Source of the DNA: a virus
DNA: 28,214 bases
Strand: one strand, 5' to 3'
Virus record (IMG/VR): IMGVR_UViG_3300037261_000011
Coordinates: 1 to 28,214 of that record
Made by a program: the position numbers and the translations under genes. This document shows, in pieces, positions 5,300-19,453 of the stretch (position 1 is the stretch's first letter; each line of letters starts with the position of its first letter). The notes beneath the pieces are model-generated. The model was given only the letters and a program-made list of their open reading frames with translations. It was not told where the DNA came from and made no database searches.

Positions 5300-6701
5300 C
5301 GATCTGCCTTACCAACTGCATCCGACGCAGGACTTGGTATTTCGGAATAACGACGCGAACGAGGTGCTCTATGGTGGAGCGAAGGGCGGTGGTAAGAGCT
5401 TTCTGATTCGCTACTGCTTCTGCGCCTGGGCGATGTTTACTCCAGGAGTGCAGCTCTATCTCTTCCGACGAACGCATCCGGATTTATGGAAGAATCACAT
5501 GGAAGGACCGAGCAGCTTTCCAAATATGCTGGCAAAGTGCGAGGCGAAAGGTCAATGCGCGATCATTGGAAAAGAAGTGAGATGGGCGAATGGTGCGCGA
5601 ATCTTTCTCAACCACCTGCAACTCGAACGTCACGTCACCAAATATCAAGGTGTCGAATGCCACGCCGCGGGTTTTGATGAGCTCACGCAATTTTCTGAGT
5701 ATCAATATCGCTACGTCACGGGCTCAGTTCGACTCGGTAGCTTCGTTCCGACAGGCCCGTTCGCGCACATCTTCCCGATTATCCTGAACGGCGCGAACCC
5801 TGGCGGCATTAGTCACGACTTCGTTAAACAACGGTTCATCGACCAAGGGCCGTACGAGATAAAACACCGGACAGAGAAAGAGGAAGGCGGATTCTACCGG
5901 CAGTTCATCCCCGCGCGCGTCGAGGACAACCCAGAGCTGCTTAAAAACGACCCGACCTACTTGGAGCGCCTAGAGGGCATGGGCAACCCCGAGCTTGTGC
6001 GGGCGATGCGCGAGGGCGACTGGGATGTCATCGCGGGCTCGATGTTTGGCTACGTCTGGCGCAACGAGCGTCACGTCTGCGAGCCGTTTGCTATTCCCGC
6101 GACCTGGGACATCTGGCGCGGCGGAGACGACGGCTACAACGCGCCGGCATCTGTCCACTGGTTAACCCAGAACCCGGACAACGGGACGTTCTACGTGATC
6201 GCGGAGATTTACGAGAAAGGGCTGTTGCCAGACGAGTTCGCCAAGAAAACGTTGGAGATGGACTTCTCGATTCGTGTCAACTTCGGCGACGACGAAGTAG
6301 GCGAAAACGATTTGGAGCTGGCTGGTAAGATGGACTCGGCCGCGTTTTCGGATACTGGCACAGGCAAAGAGAGTCGCGCAGCGCAGATGAACCGGATGGG
6401 ATGCCGCTGGCGCGCGGTCGAGAAAGGAACCGGAAGCAGAGTCATGCGCGCTCAGATGATGCACAAGGTGCTGGCGCCGAATCCGCTGATGCACAAAGAT
6501 CGAAATGGCGTCTGTTTTCCTGGCCTCCGAATCTTCTCGCGTTGCACTGCGGCGATCCGCACAATACCGAAGTTGCCGATCTCAGAGAAAAACCCAGAGG
6601 ACGTTGACACGACCGGCGAGGACCACGCCTTCGACTCAATCACCTATGGCTTAACCGAGAAGCGGGCTTACTTTACCAAGGCGAAGATCACCGGGATATG
6701 A
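5247..6701 (+). CDS. terL: Terminase large subunit (packaging ATPase/nuclease)
   Basis: 484 residues from the ATG at 5247; a TTG at 5235 is the only nearby alternative. Walker A is GAKGGGKS (residues 44-51). Walker B is AAGFDE (about 140-145), followed by the TQFSEYQYRYV segment characteristic of phage terminases. The C-terminal half has RNase H-like nuclease acidic residues: Asp in GGDDGYNAPASVHW, DSAAF, and DHAFDSITYGL near the end. The enzyme powers DNA translocation into the prohead and cuts concatemers. It overlaps the small subunit by 53 bases and the following methylase by ATGA. Length is normal for the family. Confidence 0.93.
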   Translation: MPTLALPEQDSKALVDLSDLPYQLHPTQDLVFRNNDANEVLYGGAKGGGKSFLIRYCFCAWAMFTPGVQLYLFRRTHPDLWKNHMEGPSSFPNMLAKCEAKGQCAIIGKEVRWANGARIFLNHLQLERHVTKYQGVECHAAGFDELTQFSEYQYRYVTGSVRLGSFVPTGPFAHIFPIILNGANPGGISHDFVKQRFIDQGPYEIKHRTEKEEGGFYRQFIPARVEDNPELLKNDPTYLERLEGMGNPELVRAMREGDWDVIAGSMFGYVWRNERHVCEPFAIPATWDIWRGGDDGYNAPASVHWLTQNPDNGTFYVIAEIYEKGLLPDEFAKKTLEMDFSIRVNFGDDEVGENDLELAGKMDSAAFSDTGTGKESRAAQMNRMGCRWRAVEKGTGSRVMRAQMMHKVLAPNPLMHKDRNGVCFPGLRIFSRCTAAIRTIPKLPISEKNPEDVDTTGEDHAFDSITYGLTEKRAYFTKAKITGI

Positions 6702-7708
6702 AAACTGATTTGCTGACCATTCTTTGCGGCGACGCGCTCGAACAACTTCGGACTTTGCCGGACGAGAGCGTGCAATGCTGCGTGACGAGTCCGCCTTACT
6801 GGGGTTTGCGTGATTACCAGGTCGAAGGTCAACTCGGCCTCGAAAAAACGCCGGAGCAATACGTCGCCAAAATGGTCGAAGTGTTTTGCGAAGTCCGCCG
6901 CGTCCTGAAAAGGGATGGGTCTATGTGGCTTAATCTCGGAGATAGCTACTGGACTGACTCGCCGGTGCGGTCGAAGGCATCCGAGGCTTTCAGCGGGAAA
7001 TGGGATCCTGCGCAAACCGCATCGCGCGGCGGGCTTCGCAAAACAGCCGCCAAGAGTGGCGTATTCAAAAACAAAGACCTCGTCGGCATACCGTGGATGA
7101 CCGCCTTCGCCTTGCGCGCGGACGGCTGGTGGCTACGGAGCGACATCATTTGGGCAAAACCAAACCCAATGCCGGAGAGCGTGACGGATCGACCGACCAA
7201 ATCGCACGAATATCTTTTCCTGCTGACCAAGTCGGCGAAGTATTATTACGACGCGGAGGCGATTCAGGAGAGAGCGGTGACGAACGAAGATCGACCAAGC
7301 GGAATTATTCGGGATCGCATTTTGGATTACGACAGCAAGGAAAAACAGCTTAGGAATCGAAAGAGCGGAGATTATGGGAATGGTGCCGGCAGAAACGACG
7401 GCGACAATCATCCTTCAGGTGGGTGGACTGATTTAGAATATCGAAACAAGAGGAGTGTCTGGACGGTAAACTCTCAGCCATACGCCGACGCACACTTCGC
7501 AACCTACCCACCGGACCTAATCAAACCCTGCATCTTGGCCGGAAGCAAGCCGGGAGATATTATACTCGACCCATTTGCAGGGAGCGGCACAACCGGAATG
7601 GTCTCGCTCGAGCTCGGCAGGAAAGTCACGCTCATAGAACTTAACCCCGAATACGTGAAGCTGATCGAGCAACGGTGTAATACGACGCCAGGACTTGCAC
7701 TCACATGA
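6698..7708 (+). CDS. Site-specific DNA methyltransferase, N4/N6 beta type
   Basis: 336 residues. The catalytic motif TSPPYW is at about 30-35 and the SAM-binding motif DPFAGSGT at about 291-298, so the catalytic motif precedes the SAM motif, as in beta-class amino-methyltransferases. Between them lies a target-recognition region with GIPWMTAFALRADGWWLRSDIIWAKPNPMPESV, a well-known conserved block of this family. It would methylate adenine N6 or cytosine N4. It follows the terminase by an ATGA overlap, and no restriction partner is near, so protection against host restriction is the likely role. The recognition sequence cannot be predicted by eye. Confidence 0.93.
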   Translation: MKTDLLTILCGDALEQLRTLPDESVQCCVTSPPYWGLRDYQVEGQLGLEKTPEQYVAKMVEVFCEVRRVLKRDGSMWLNLGDSYWTDSPVRSKASEAFSGKWDPAQTASRGGLRKTAAKSGVFKNKDLVGIPWMTAFALRADGWWLRSDIIWAKPNPMPESVTDRPTKSHEYLFLLTKSAKYYYDAEAIQERAVTNEDRPSGIIRDRILDYDSKEKQLRNRKSGDYGNGAGRNDGDNHPSGGWTDLEYRNKRSVWTVNSQPYADAHFATYPPDLIKPCILAGSKPGDIILDPFAGSGTTGMVSLELGRKVTLIELNPEYVKLIEQRCNTTPGLALT

Positions 7709-12910: not shown

Positions 12911-13188
12911 TTGAGCAACACCATCTCAGACTGGACTGGTTACAAACGAGCGCTAACGCTGTCGCGCACATGGTTGCAACAGATGGAAAAAGCGCGGGAG
13001 CATTTTGCGGTTACGTTCCAGTCGGCGGACTGTTCTATCGAATGAACTGCCCCATCATCACCTCGAACAGTTACGCGGTGCCGGCGAAATGCGCGCAGTG
13101 CGATGAGATCGACAAGTCAGGATGCGAACTTTACTGGACGGATTCGGAGACGGGCGAAATGATCACGGTGAGAGCGGAGCGCAGGTGA
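12907..13188 (+). CDS. Small hypothetical protein with Cys pair
   Basis: 93 residues from the ATG at 12907, which overlaps the lipoprotein stop as ATGA; the frame is open further upstream but that part lies inside the lipoprotein gene. It contains GYVPVGGLFYRMNCPIIT and CAQCDEIDKSGCELYW, a possible metal-binding cysteine group. Its stop (TGA 13186-13188) sits inside the GTG-A-ATG start region of the two methyltransferase-locus genes, so all three are coupled. Confidence 0.5.
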   Translation: MIEQHHLRLDWLQTSANAVAHMVATDGKSAGAFCGYVPVGGLFYRMNCPIITSNSYAVPAKCAQCDEIDKSGCELYWTDSETGEMITVRAERR

Positions 13189-14048
13189 ATGAGCTACATC
13201 TTTTTGCAGGAGCAGGCGGGGGAATCCTTGGCGGAATGCTTCTCGGACATACCTGCGTATGTGCTGTCGAGATTGAACCTTATTGCCGACAGGTCTTGCT
13301 CCAAAGGCAGCGCGACGGAATCTTGCCAAGGTTCCCAATCTGGGACGATGTTAAAACCTTTGACGGGAAGCCGTGGAGAGGGCTTGTCGATGTCGTCTGC
13401 GGCGGGTTCCCCTGCCAAGACATCAGTTACGCCGGAGCAAGAGCCGGAATCGAAGGAAGTCAATCTGGACTTTGGTCAGAAATGGCAAGGATCATTTACG
13501 AGATTAGACCCGCTTTTGCGTTTGTGGAAAACTCCTCAGGCCTTACTATTCGCGGGCTTGGAAACGTTCTCAGAGACCTGGCCAAAATTCGGTATAATGC
13601 AAGATGGTGCGTGTTGGGCGCTGACGCCGTCGGAGCTAACCATCACCGAAAACGAATTTGGATATTGGCTTCCGACTCCGACAAAGAGCGATGCGGAACT
13701 GGGAGCACCGGAAGGCAAAGACGATACCTTCCGAATCACGTCAACGGGAATGCCACGAAAGATCAATCGAAACGGAACGAGCGGATCAGTAGGATTAGCG
13801 AGGCTCCTGGCTATGATGCCAACTCCCAGGAAATCGCGAGGGTTCACGAATCCAACAGAGGGCAAAGAGCGAAACGATTGCCTAACCACATTTCTCCTTG
13901 GAAAACCTGTCCTTGGGATGAGACCAAATCCAGAGTTTGTAGAGTGGATGATGGATTGGCCGATAGGGTGGACAGAACGGAATCCATTGGCAACGGACAA
14001 GTTCCAGCAGTGGTTCGACTCGCATGGGAAACTTTGACTGAAAAGTGA
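13185..14048 (+). CDS. DNA (cytosine-5) methyltransferase
   Basis: 287 residues from GTG 13185; the frame is open upstream to 13122, but that part overlaps another gene and lacks family character. Motif I is LHLFAGAGGG (4-13), the catalytic loop GGFPCQDIS has Cys77, motif VI is VENSSG (E115), motif VIII is HHRKRIWIL (153-161), and motif X is GNGQVPAVVRLAW (269-281). All core motifs are present with a short target-recognition region in between. It would methylate C5 of cytosine in double-stranded DNA. Its body is overlapped from 13189 to 14037 by a second frame that also looks genuine. Confidence 0.92.
   Translation: MNELHLFAGAGGGILGGMLLGHTCVCAVEIEPYCRQVLLQRQRDGILPRFPIWDDVKTFDGKPWRGLVDVVCGGFPCQDISYAGARAGIEGSQSGLWSEMARIIYEIRPAFAFVENSSGLTIRGLGNVLRDLAKIRYNARWCVLGADAVGANHHRKRIWILASDSDKERCGTGSTGRQRRYLPNHVNGNATKDQSKRNERISRISEAPGYDANSQEIARVHESNRGQRAKRLPNHISPWKTCPWDETKSRVCRVDDGLADRVDRTESIGNGQVPAVVRLAWETLTEK
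13189..14037 (+). CDS. Methyltransferase-associated protein in overlapping frame
   Basis: 282 residues, starting at an ATG four bases after the methyltransferase GTG and ending 11 bases before its stop, all on the same strand in the next frame. The product follows a phage family I recognise: an opening MSYIFLQEQAGESLAECFSDIPAYVLSRL, a Ser/Gly-rich part with GEGLSMSSAAGSPAKT, then LWKTPQALLFAGLETFSETWPKFGIMQDG, YWLPTPTKSDAE, and an ending NPEFVEWMMDWPIGWTE...KFQQWFDSHG. From memory such proteins occur beside or overlapping phage C5-methyltransferases; their function is not established and DNA modification is a guess. The recognisable blocks throughout argue that both frames are used. Confidence 0.75.
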   Translation: MSYIFLQEQAGESLAECFSDIPAYVLSRLNLIADRSCSKGSATESCQGSQSGTMLKPLTGSRGEGLSMSSAAGSPAKTSVTPEQEPESKEVNLDFGQKWQGSFTRLDPLLRLWKTPQALLFAGLETFSETWPKFGIMQDGACWALTPSELTITENEFGYWLPTPTKSDAELGAPEGKDDTFRITSTGMPRKINRNGTSGSVGLARLLAMMPTPRKSRGFTNPTEGKERNDCLTTFLLGKPVLGMRPNPEFVEWMMDWPIGWTERNPLATDKFQQWFDSHGKL

Positions 14049-15946: not shown

Positions 15947-17968
15947 ATGCCCGACCAGCCAACGGAAGACAATCTCGCCGGCGACCTAATTGACGCGGTC
16001 AACTCGCACGTCATCGACGTCTTGCGAGTCGGCAGTTCGATCCGTCGCCAAGTTCTCGCACTTCTCAAAGCGCTCGAGATAGATTTGTCAGCGCAGATAG
16101 ATAAGACAGTCGGCAACAACGATCTCAACTGGCAGCGGTTGACGAAATTACTGACTGCGACCCGCGCGACGATCAACGAGGCTTACACCGAGATTGAAGG
16201 CGCGCACACCGGACAGCTCGCAACGCTCGCACGCGCGTCGGTGCGGCACGTCGTCACTGCGGTTAACGACGCGGTCAAAGTCGAGTTGATGGCGGCGACG
16301 TTTAACAAGGCCGAGTTCCAGGCGATGGCGAAAAAGACGTTGCTCAACGGTCGCTACGCAGATGAATGGTGGTCGCGACAAGCGAAAAGTTTACAGGACA
16401 GGTTCACCGTCCAGATGCGGCTCGGGATGCTCCAAGGCGAGAGCATCAGCGATCTGGTAAAACGTTTACGCGGGACGAAGGCTTCGAACTTCTCAGACGG
16501 GCTCATGCAGATGCAGCGTTACCAAGCCGAAGCGCTCGTGCGGACGTCGGTGATCGCGATTAGTAACGCGGCGAGATTACAATCATTTATGCAGAACGCC
16601 GATATTATTAAAGGAGTGCAGTGGGTTTCAACTTTAGATTCCAGGACCACGGAAATCTGCATCGCGCTCGACGGCAAGATGTGGACGCTGCCAGAGAGCG
16701 GCGACATCGAGGATTACGCCGGTTACAAACCAATCGGTCACGACAAGAACTTTCCCGGACCGACAGCGCATTTCAACTGTCTTTTAGGCAACACGCTGAT
16801 TGATGCGTCGCATCAACTTCTCGGCGCTAGTGTCCGTGAATATACGGGCGAGCTGGTTACCCTTAAGACTGCCAACGGCAAAAGTCTTACCGGGACTCCG
16901 AATCATCCGATAGCAACAAAACGCGGATGGAGAAATCTTGGCGAGATCGTAACTGGCGATGATCTCCTCTGCGATAATGGCCGGGTCGACGGACTTACGG
17001 CGGCAATCAATCAAGAAAATAAGCACAGACCAACCTTGCTTGAGGATATAACGCGTTCGTTCCTCGAATCGCGCCGCGTGCTCTCCATAGAAGTGCCAGT
17101 AACCGCTCCAGATTTCCACGGCGATGGGCCAGGCAGCGAAGTCGCAATTATAGGAGCCAATTTGGACTTGCCTGTTAAATCCGGTCAAATACGGAGCGAG
17201 AGAATCTTCAAGGGAAGATCGAACGGAGGCATTCAGGTCGCGTTGCCTGGTGTTCGCCATCTTAAGTTTCTCACGAAGCGTCTTGCGTCTTCCTCGCGTG
17301 GCAATATGAGCGGCAGCTACCAGGTGCTTGCGTTGACTAGGAGTAGAGCGCTTCCAACGCAACAGCATATCCTCATGCGTAGTTCGGACATGATTTCCAG
17401 AATTGGCCACCCACCTAGTCAAGGTAGTTTGGCTGATTCTGAACTTTTTACAGATTTGCTTTCCGGGGACTTCGGAAAGATAAAGTTTGACCGCGTGAGC
17501 ATGGTCAGTAGGCGTAAAGCCATATCGGTTAGGGTTCATAATCTCGAAACAACGTCGGGTTTCTATATCGCTAATGGTATAGTTTGTCACAACTGTAGGT
17601 CAACACAAATCGCAGTGATGGAATCCTTCAAAGACTTGGCCGCGCAGGCGGCGAAGAAGAGGGGCAAAACCCTCGGCAAGTCGCGGTTCGACGAGTTCTT
17701 CCAGCAGGCGTTGCTTGACCAGGGTTTCAGCGAAGAGGAAGCGGCTGGCATCAAGGCCAACACCCGCGCATCAATGGACGGCCAGGTCGGAACGGATGGC
17801 GGCTATGCGAAATGGTTGAATGGCAAAGACGCAGCGTTTCAAGATGAGCTACTCGGTAAGACTGCGGGCAAACTGTGGCGCGCTGGAAAGATTGATCTGA
17901 CCGACATCACAAACACTGATAATCGGCCGTTGTCGGCATCGGAACTTTTGGCTAAAGTAGGAGGATGA
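15947..17968 (+). CDS. Mu gpF-like minor head protein with intein
   Basis: 673 residues as translated. Residues 1-277 plus 550-673 form a head morphogenesis protein of the Mu gpF/SPP1 gp7 family: a helical N-terminus, the block GVQWVSTLDSRTTEICIALDGKMWTL, GHDKNFPGPTAHFN and CRSTQIAVMESF. In the family the last two blocks are contiguous as H-x-N-C-R. Here residues 278-549 are inserted exactly before the Cys and are an intein (16778-17593). Excision would give a 401-residue protein of ordinary length. The product is a minor capsid protein near the portal. Start ATG 15947 follows the tiny membrane protein by nine bases. Confidence 0.9.
   Translation: MPDQPTEDNLAGDLIDAVNSHVIDVLRVGSSIRRQVLALLKALEIDLSAQIDKTVGNNDLNWQRLTKLLTATRATINEAYTEIEGAHTGQLATLARASVRHVVTAVNDAVKVELMAATFNKAEFQAMAKKTLLNGRYADEWWSRQAKSLQDRFTVQMRLGMLQGESISDLVKRLRGTKASNFSDGLMQMQRYQAEALVRTSVIAISNAARLQSFMQNADIIKGVQWVSTLDSRTTEICIALDGKMWTLPESGDIEDYAGYKPIGHDKNFPGPTAHFNCLLGNTLIDASHQLLGASVREYTGELVTLKTANGKSLTGTPNHPIATKRGWRNLGEIVTGDDLLCDNGRVDGLTAAINQENKHRPTLLEDITRSFLESRRVLSIEVPVTAPDFHGDGPGSEVAIIGANLDLPVKSGQIRSERIFKGRSNGGIQVALPGVRHLKFLTKRLASSSRGNMSGSYQVLALTRSRALPTQQHILMRSSDMISRIGHPPSQGSLADSELFTDLLSGDFGKIKFDRVSMVSRRKAISVRVHNLETTSGFYIANGIVCHNCRSTQIAVMESFKDLAAQAAKKRGKTLGKSRFDEFFQQALLDQGFSEEEAAGIKANTRASMDGQVGTDGGYAKWLNGKDAAFQDELLGKTAGKLWRAGKIDLTDITNTDNRPLSASELLAKVGG
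16778..17593 (+). mobile_element. Intein in the minor head protein
   Basis: 272 codons in frame with the host gene. Intein residue Cys1 opens block A (CLLGNTLI). Block B is GTPNHPIAT with the T40-P-N-H43 motif, followed by GWRNLGEIVTGDDLL. Block F/G is VHNLETTSGFYIANGIVCHN, ending in His271-Asn272. The +1 extein residue is Cys (17594-17596). All residues needed for canonical Cys-class splicing are therefore present. No LAGLIDADG or HNH endonuclease is encoded in the sense frame. The middle (about 70-230) contains DFHGDGPGSEVAIIGAN, a motif I remember from Hint domains in other phage head proteins. The whole element is overlapped by an antisense nuclease-like frame. Confidence 0.88.
16784..17590 (-). 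CDS. Vsr/DUF559-like homing endonuclease, antisense to intein
   Basis: 268 residues read from a GTG at 17590 to a TAA at 16784-16786; an ATG at 17537-17539 (residue 18) is a likely alternative start. Residues about 29-61 form a helix-turn-helix (HAVKLYLSEVPGKQICKKFRISQTTLTRWV). A linker rich in Arg/Lys follows. Residues 124-195 read as a Vsr/DUF559-like nuclease core: SLEDSLAPYL (E128), GSYNCDFAAWPIAVEI (D150, E159), GYWHF (H166), then HAARFEERTRYILKQGWSVLIFLI. This order resembles EDxHD/Vsr-like homing nucleases. Codons lie in exact register opposite the intein codons. A promoter-like pair (TTGACC, 16 bases, TATACC) precedes residue 18. Nuclease activity and homing are inferences. Confidence 0.65.
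   Translation of the reverse strand: MTNYTISDIETRRCFEIMNPNRYGFTPTDHAHAVKLYLSEVPGKQICKKFRISQTTLTRWVANSGNHVRTTHEDMLLRWKRSTPSQRKHLVAAAHIATRGRRKTLREKLKMANTRQRDLNASVRSSLEDSLAPYLTGFNRQVQIGSYNCDFAAWPIAVEIWSGYWHFYGEHAARFEERTRYILKQGWSVLIFLIDCRRKSVDPAIIAEEIIASYDLAKISPSAFCCYRMIRSPGKTFAVGSLKGNQLARIFTDTSAEKLMRRINQRVA
17576..17603 (-). promoter_or_regulatory. Candidate promoter for the antisense nuclease
   Basis: Read on the minus strand, TTGACC (17603-17598) and TATACC (17581-17576) are separated by 16 bases. They match five of six and four of six sigma-70 consensus positions. A transcript would start roughly 30 bases upstream of the internal ATG at 17539. The -35 box lies in extein DNA and the -10 box in the intein, so the promoter straddles the insertion junction. 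It is a pattern match only. Confidence 0.3.
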
Positions 17969-18754: not shown

Positions 18755-19453
18755 ATGAAACATTATTACCAAGACTCTGCGGTTACGATCTATCACGGAG
18801 ATTGCAGGGAGATTCTGCCGCTAGATTCTAGCTTGGGCGTTGCGGTCGTTACTGATCCACCTTACGGGATGGAGCTGGATGCGTCGTTTAGCAATTCAAC
18901 ACCGAACCCAGCTAAGGGCATAGGTAAAAGCCGTGGTTACGAGAATGTGATTGGAGATGATCAGCCATTTGATTTTCAAATTTATTTTGGATTAGTCCAA
19001 GAGATCAAGGAGCAGTTTTGGTTCGGAGCAGACTACTACCGCGACCAACTTCCTAAAGGCGGATCATGGCTAACATGGGATAAACGCGAGGGAATTGAGC
19101 ACGTTGAATATTCCTCTAGCGAATTTGAGCTAATTTGGAGCCGCAGGAAGCATAAGCGCCGGATTCTTCGATATCGCTGGTTTGGACTTTGCGGAACGGA
19201 AACACAGGACATTCGTAAGCGCGTGCATCCATGCCAGAAACCCACACAGCTAATCTCCGATATTATTCAAATTGCCGGAGGGTGTTATCTAATCCTCGAC
19301 CCCTTCATGGGCAGCGGAACAACGCTCCGCGCGGCCAAAGACCTAGGCCGCAAAGCTATCGGAATCGAGATCGAAGAGAAGTATTGCGAGATAGCCGCGA
19401 AAACGAATGGCGCAGGAAGTTCTCAGCTTTTCCGTTTGACGAGCAACGGTTAA
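18755..19453 (+). CDS. DNA methyltransferase, small DPPY type
   Basis: 232 residues. The catalytic motif DPPYG lies at about 34-38 and the SAM-binding motif DPFMGSGTT at about 182-190, followed by GRKAIGIEIEEKYCEIA. The motif order (catalytic first) again marks the beta class of N4/N6 amino-methyltransferases. HPCQKPTQLISDII just before the SAM motif is the usual family block. The protein is short, with a reduced target-recognition segment. It is the third DNA methyltransferase in this window and lies between structural genes, possibly an insertion. An upstream TATAGT (18742-18747) could be a -10 element, but no convincing -35 is seen. Confidence 0.9.
   Translation: MKHYYQDSAVTIYHGDCREILPLDSSLGVAVVTDPPYGMELDASFSNSTPNPAKGIGKSRGYENVIGDDQPFDFQIYFGLVQEIKEQFWFGADYYRDQLPKGGSWLTWDKREGIEHVEYSSSEFELIWSRRKHKRRILRYRWFGLCGTETQDIRKRVHPCQKPTQLISDIIQIAGGCYLILDPFMGSGTTLRAAKDLGRKAIGIEIEEKYCEIAAKTNGAGSSQLFRLTSNG

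Follow-up and report, generated by a model that had tools for sequence, protein, structure and literature searches.

In the usual picture, an intein is one protein chain with splicing activity, to which mobile forms add DNA cleavage. In the canonical mobile inteins, a LAGLIDADG or HNH nuclease is read in frame with the splicing domain. Here we describe an intein in the gene of a Mu-F-like minor head protein, carried by a 28,214-nucleotide stretch of viral DNA (IMG/VR record IMGVR_UViG_3300037261_000011, positions 1 to 28,214; this whole stretch is hereafter called the window). Very probably this intein is mobile and its homing endonuclease is encoded by a gene of its own, on the other strand of the intein DNA. 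As in the canonical elements, a splicing domain and a nuclease share one insertion at a conserved site of a host protein, and the Hint halves flank the nuclease region; unlike in those elements, the nuclease is of the Vsr/DUF559 type and belongs to an opposite-strand gene with its own signals. A link between Vsr-like nucleases and inteins is not in itself new: the 'fractured genes' of Dassa et al. 2009 reportedly comprise a Vsr-like homing endonuclease family associated with split inteins, the nuclease gene lying between the split halves, whereas the present intein is intact and is overlapped by the nuclease gene in antisense. A further point of comparison is I-Bth0305I (3r3p), which is the best PDB fold match of the antisense nuclease and also one of its profile matches, although it is borne by a phage group I intron and the comparison does not share the DNA-binding part.

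The nearest described case is the ShiLan domain, an insertion in a phage DNA methylase in which an HNH endonuclease is hidden out of frame and which has no splicing domain (PMC11855218, Genes 2025). In both systems the host frame stays open across the insertion and a homing-type nuclease is read from another frame, and both appear to be mobile among phages. The nuclease described here differs from ShiLan in being antisense, in being of the Vsr/DUF559 type, in overlapping a splicing domain and in having promoter, ribosome-site, start and stop signals. No antisense nuclease inside an intein was found in the searchable literature, in keeping with the initial annotation of the window, which had called the arrangement undescribed; a bioRxiv preprint on actinobacteriophage inteins (10.1101/2025.01.02.630785, 2025) lies outside that search.

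Results

The intein and its antisense frame

The initial annotation had proposed a complete 272-codon intein at an H-x-N/C site (the slash marks the insertion point) of a minor head protein. This is borne out by the residues of the element (Cys1, TPNH, His271-Asn272 and, at 17594, Cys+1) and by Pfam and phrog matches, the interrupted open reading frame (ORF) matching Phage_Mu_F with an E-value of 3.3e-13 and the head morphogenesis family phrog_241 with 1.5e-88 (Table 1). A profile of the relatives of the intein matched inteins of known structure, among them the Mtu RecA intein (3e-8). Cys1, TPNH and the final Asn are invariant in 34 relatives, His271 is kept in more than 90% of them, and Cys+1 is found in 73 of 74. 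In the AlphaFold2 (AF2) model of the sense intein, the predicted local distance difference test (pLDDT) is about 91-97 over residues 1-60, 84 over residues 61-70 and above 90 from residue 241 on. The high-confidence ends are rich in beta strands, as in a Hint fold, and these two halves are predicted to fold and to splice out. Over residues 133-219, pLDDT falls below 45; in this disordered middle no nuclease match was obtained with Pfam, and the endonuclease domain that typically belongs to the same polypeptide is not seen, in agreement with what had been claimed for the sense frame.

Opposite the intein, as was first reported, the minus strand stays open in exact codon register from the position facing His271 down to a stop facing Leu3. 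The open frame of 268 codons is thus real, but the likely product is shorter, with 251 residues counted from an internal ATG (Table 1). The GTG opposite His271 was considered as the start and rejected; two close relatives (L023 and L048) carry an in-frame stop just upstream of the equivalent of this ATG, and translation must therefore start there or later.

The helix-turn-helix and the Vsr/DUF559-like core assigned to this product at first sight were both recovered. HTH_28 and HTH_23 match the N-terminal region (Table 1), where the AF2 antisense model has helices at residues 10-21, 26-33 and 37-46, and DUF559 matches the window protein at about 5.0e-4 to 5.7e-4, just under Pfam's cut-off. MTES_1575 was matched by 38 of 62 members of the antisense family (best 9.1e-7), and a profile search with this family reached 3hrl (2.6e-5) and I-Bth0305I (3r3p, 2.5e-3). 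The antisense protein was modelled from the 62-sequence alignment with a mean pLDDT of 86.7, close to 95 over residues 10-200 except for a short dip, as N-terminal helices followed by an alpha/beta nuclease. When this model was searched against PDB folds, 3r3p came first (probability 0.98), then the DUF559 protein 3hrl (0.87); viral DUF559/'DNA mismatch endonuclease' models were matched as well. Judging from the AF2 confidence in both frames, the same DNA would encode a disordered linker in sense and a well-folded nuclease in antisense. The residues singled out in the initial annotation are conserved among the antisense relatives: Y147, D150, A157, E159 and R178 (268-residue numbering) are invariant in 17 divergent sequences, and, numbered from the ATG, R52, G83, G128, D133, E142, R161 and Y210 are invariant in 62, in which E111, Q124, W148 and H149 are nearly so (E111, W148 and H149 above 90%). 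Each single match is modest, and the predicted assignment to a PD-(D/E)XK-like nuclease of the Vsr/DUF559/MTES_1575 type is carried by the agreement of sequence, fold and the conserved D133/E142 pair.

Selection on the antisense frame

Relatives were collected in several ways. A tblastn search of annotated phages with the antisense protein gave 102 records (24-32% identity, E down to 1e-19), and the match lay opposite a head-protein gene in every examined locus except that of Acinetobacter phage IME285; the sense intein as query gave 138 matching records. Viral contigs were scanned with a sense-only pattern (TPNH...) to avoid selecting by the antisense frame, and the best 80 of at least 572 candidates encoding a relative were taken. 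The test set was made of 82 distinct inteins, mostly gathered by sense similarity only (the sense-only scan gave 61 of the 74 that are non-redundant), and codon positions were compared in 74 sequences of less than 70% identity; the core of an intein was defined as running from codon 29 to 40 codons before its end. The window antisense protein alone retrieved no relative in the viral contigs, and the 62-sequence alignment did; the antisense profile had one match in the 28,214-base window record. By these comparisons, the antisense arrangement is conserved across dozens of divergent phages.

In the cores of the 82 inteins, antisense stops are absent from all 3,413 Leu/Ser codons, where the extein codon usage of each gene would predict about 498; the corresponding log P (-246) is only an upper bound on significance because the sequences were counted as independent. 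Over whole inteins there are 121 antisense stops in 4,155 Leu/Ser codons, against 560 in 4,481 (12.5%) in the exteins, and nearly all of the 121 fall at codon 2, where they form the antisense terminator, or within the first 28 or the last 20-30 codons. Moreover, the third sense base varies less than the first (H(pos1)>H(pos3)) in 112 of 158 columns of the middle, in 21 of 69 of the N block and in 1 of 21 of the last block; since the wobble base is the better conserved one, the pattern of the middle is the reverse of that left by coding for a sense protein. Eight disjoint pairs of close relatives gave the same picture, with 215 changes in the middle synonymous in antisense only and 46 in sense only, the counts being 37 and 62 in the N-terminal splicing block and 8 and 39 in the C-terminal one. 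Single positions illustrate this: sense residues 125 and 45 are GTA or ATA in 73 and 74 of 74 inteins, and residue 122 is GTC or ATC in all 74, so that Val and Ile alternate at 125 and 45 and an antisense Tyr is kept at both, as is an antisense Asp at 122. Taken from these alignments, antisense purifying selection is strong and dominates the middle of the intein, and sense selection dominates the splicing ends. The dual-strand coding first proposed from the window is thereby confirmed as real and far beyond chance.

Expression signals nested in the intein

The signals of a gene are written into the splicing motifs themselves. The C-terminal splicing block G-H-V-Y-N-L-E reads (G)GAGGTT-N6-ATG in antisense. 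Leu256, whose CTC codon yields the antisense GAGG, is CTC in 49 of 66 inteins (25% in exteins), and His252, whose CAT codon yields the ATG, is CAT in 42 of 52 (41% in exteins); where that ATG is missing, the start is mostly shifted by one or two codons. At the other end, Leu2 is TTA or CTA, which gives the antisense stop, in 44 of 46 inteins, compared with 12% in exteins. Upstream of the start, opposite the I-I/V-T residues 268-270, an antisense TATAAT is present in 20 of 74 inteins (1.1 expected), and in 16 of them as the extended -10 box TGnTATAAT (0.19 expected).

Intein and nuclease apart, and empty sites

The antisense profile retrieved 89 loci (80 viral and 9 from genomes; several lie on contigs already collected), and 87 of them have an in-register intein opposite the nuclease. 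Three loci have an intact nuclease gene and an opposite strand full of stops (L157, L189 and L010, the last being Acinetobacter phage IME285), and in L157 and L189 this gene converges on a Mu-F gene that lacks an intein (HPGCRC and HPQCRC), the two overlapping slightly. Conversely, the middle of the nuclease is deleted in frame in L191 and the intein is kept. Because of these loci on either side, the intein and the nuclease can each persist alone.

Comparison with intein-free relatives revealed exact empty sites close to intein-bearing phages. When the spliced junction of phage vB_StyS-sam was used in tblastn, 905 phage records were uninterrupted, many at 95-99%, and the flanks are directly continuous in the Jersey-type phages SaTp-04 and skrot, which lack precisely the 816-bp intein. 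With one donor, the identity of the nearest 60 nt downstream of the insertion is 0.83, against 0.92-1.00 in the intervals that follow, a raised divergence such as co-conversion of the flank would leave.

The same head-gene site can hold another element, as Gordonia phage Lennon (L018) has a different intein there (VIN/CLTD... HN/CRC) with no match to the antisense-nuclease profile. In L086 and L057, a portal domain precedes the intein in the same open frame, L086 also having Mu-F; these are apparent portal/Mu-F fusions.

A second intein site

Two contigs, L030 (1681-2832) and L067 (1648-2787), carry a second intein elsewhere in the Mu-F head gene, so that both inteins are in one gene. On its antisense strand are Cys-rich zinc-finger-like repeats and a Vsr/DUF559 core with EVDG-x-YWHDP, and the same arrangement was found in L198, L200 and L202. 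Scans with single proteins of this type returned only the queries, and an alignment of two sequences retrieved more; the phage relatives include genes deposited as homing endonucleases. Distant homologues that match outside inteins offer a natural control: all 18 checked contain 2-13 stops in the opposite register, and the close relative L199 contains 4. This second type of nuclease does not, therefore, keep the opposite frame open by itself. The antisense-nuclease intein architecture thus appears to be recurrent.

Features of the window

Table 1. Coordinates of the head gene, the intein and the antisense gene in the window
Feature	Position	Strand	Evidence or remark
Host gene: Mu-F-like minor head/head morphogenesis protein, intein-split	15947..17968	+	673-residue ORF; Phage_Mu_F, phrog_241
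Intein, 272 residues, 816 bp, between ...AHFN and C(R)S	16778..17593	+	Intein_splicing 7.8e-5
Predicted splicing domain, N-terminal half (residues 1-70; Cys1, TPNH)	16778..16987	+	AF2 confidence; sense-driven codon-position pattern
Predicted splicing domain, C-terminal half (residues 236-272; VHNLE...CHN)	17483..17593	+	AF2 confidence; sense-driven codon-position pattern
Antisense nuclease gene (predicted), 251 residues, wholly within intein	16784..17539	-	ATG 17539-17537; stop TAA 16786-16784 opposite intein Leu3
Helix-turn-helix, antisense residues 14-46	17402..17500	-	HTH_23 2.2e-4; HTH_28 about 1.5e-4 to 1.7e-4
Vsr/DUF559-like nuclease core, antisense residues 104-201	16937..17230	-	E111, Q124, Y130-N131, D133, E142, W148-H149, R161; profile and fold matches
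Candidate antisense promoter TTGACC ... TACCAT	17574..17603	-	Upstream of ATG; where relatives have TGnTATAAT; weak in window

Elsewhere in the window, two same-strand ORFs in different frames overlap almost completely (13122-14048 and 13189-14037, both on the plus strand). Their products are a C5 cytosine methyltransferase (PF00145, 2.5e-32) and a phage-conserved protein (phrog_1008, 2e-19; phrog_35493, 2e-14); this is a second possible dual-coding locus. Beside the C5 enzyme, the window has two more DNA methyltransferases (N6_N4_Mtase, PF01555) at 6698-7708 and 18755-19453, also on the plus strand.

Discussion

We propose the following scenario for this element. Translation of the sense strand would give the head protein with the intein in it, and the Hint halves would splice out, the sense middle being an unstructured linker that needs only to be free of stops. 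Antisense transcription would begin at a promoter at the 3' end of the intein, and translation at a Shine-Dalgarno sequence and ATG inside the conserved C-terminal splicing block. The product, a helix-turn-helix followed by a Vsr/DUF559-type nuclease, would end at intein codon 2 or 3. It would cut intein-free head genes at the H-x-N/C site, and repair off the intein-bearing copy would move the intein and the nuclease together. We infer antisense expression, site-specific cleavage, homing and splicing from sequence comparison, which supports the homing role of the nuclease well. Indeed, the suggestion of the initial annotation that the nuclease making the intein mobile is the antisense gene gains support from the nuclease similarity and from the exact empty sites. 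Some observations weigh against this scenario: taken alone, I-Bth0305I is a weak fold match (E 0.029, template modelling score 0.57 on the target), the catalytic residues were assigned from conservation, and the Shine-Dalgarno site and promoter of the window copy are poorer than those of most relatives.

Could the antisense frame be an accident of codon usage and register, its conservation being the shadow of the sense protein? The portal gene of the window does have an antisense frame of 210 codons, which agrees with the early caution that length alone is weak evidence, and some of the genomes are GC-rich. A chance open frame is nevertheless ruled out by the extein controls, since antisense stops take up one in eight extein Leu/Ser codons and none in the intein cores, and by the codon-position reversal, which we regard as refuting it already. 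The helix-turn-helix and nuclease folds are, in addition, predicted for the antisense frame only, promoter, ribosome-site, start and stop signals occur in antisense more often than expected, and nuclease genes exist without an opposite intein, so that the accident has a negligible probability. It is also very improbable that the gene is decaying or silent, with selection in the past and most copies no longer expressed. The internal nuclease deletion of L191, the same-site intein of Gordonia phage Lennon and the weak expression signals of the window copy would fit such a decay; against it, no stop was found in the 82 cores and the antisense constraint is visible even in the closest pairs.

A real nuclease might also have a job other than homing, such as excluding competing phages or degrading host DNA, with the intein sheltering it. 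Vsr/DUF559-type nucleases are indeed known in other roles. This explanation is improbable in view of the exact presence or absence of the insertion at one site in near relatives, and of the free-standing copies that directly adjoin intein-free Mu-F genes in two contigs. Genes deposited as homing endonucleases are among the matches of the second-type antisense nucleases, the first type has a homing endonuclease as its best PDB fold match, and PADLOC gave no defence match for the antisense protein. A mobile intein with an antisense homing endonuclease is thus the explanation that we retain. As a broader proposal, we think it likely that a self-contained gene, complete from extended -10 promoter and ribosome site to start, coding sequence and stop and running antisense through an intein, arose at least twice, at two head-gene sites and with a helix-turn-helix in one case 

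Both halves of a selfish element thus seem to be written into one stretch of DNA. The bidirectional coding is unusually clean, one strand dominating the middle and the other the ends, with signals embedded in catalytic splicing motifs. Such a system makes it directly testable how antisense overlapping genes arise and what they cost, and it is present in laboratory phages. The arrangement would be a new way to regulate homing, uncoupled from the expression of the host protein, and it offers a nuclease family with a predicted conserved target in phage head genes. Finally, where a 'mini-intein' with a long unstructured middle has been classed as nuclease-free, it may be a mobile element that was misread, only one strand having been checked.
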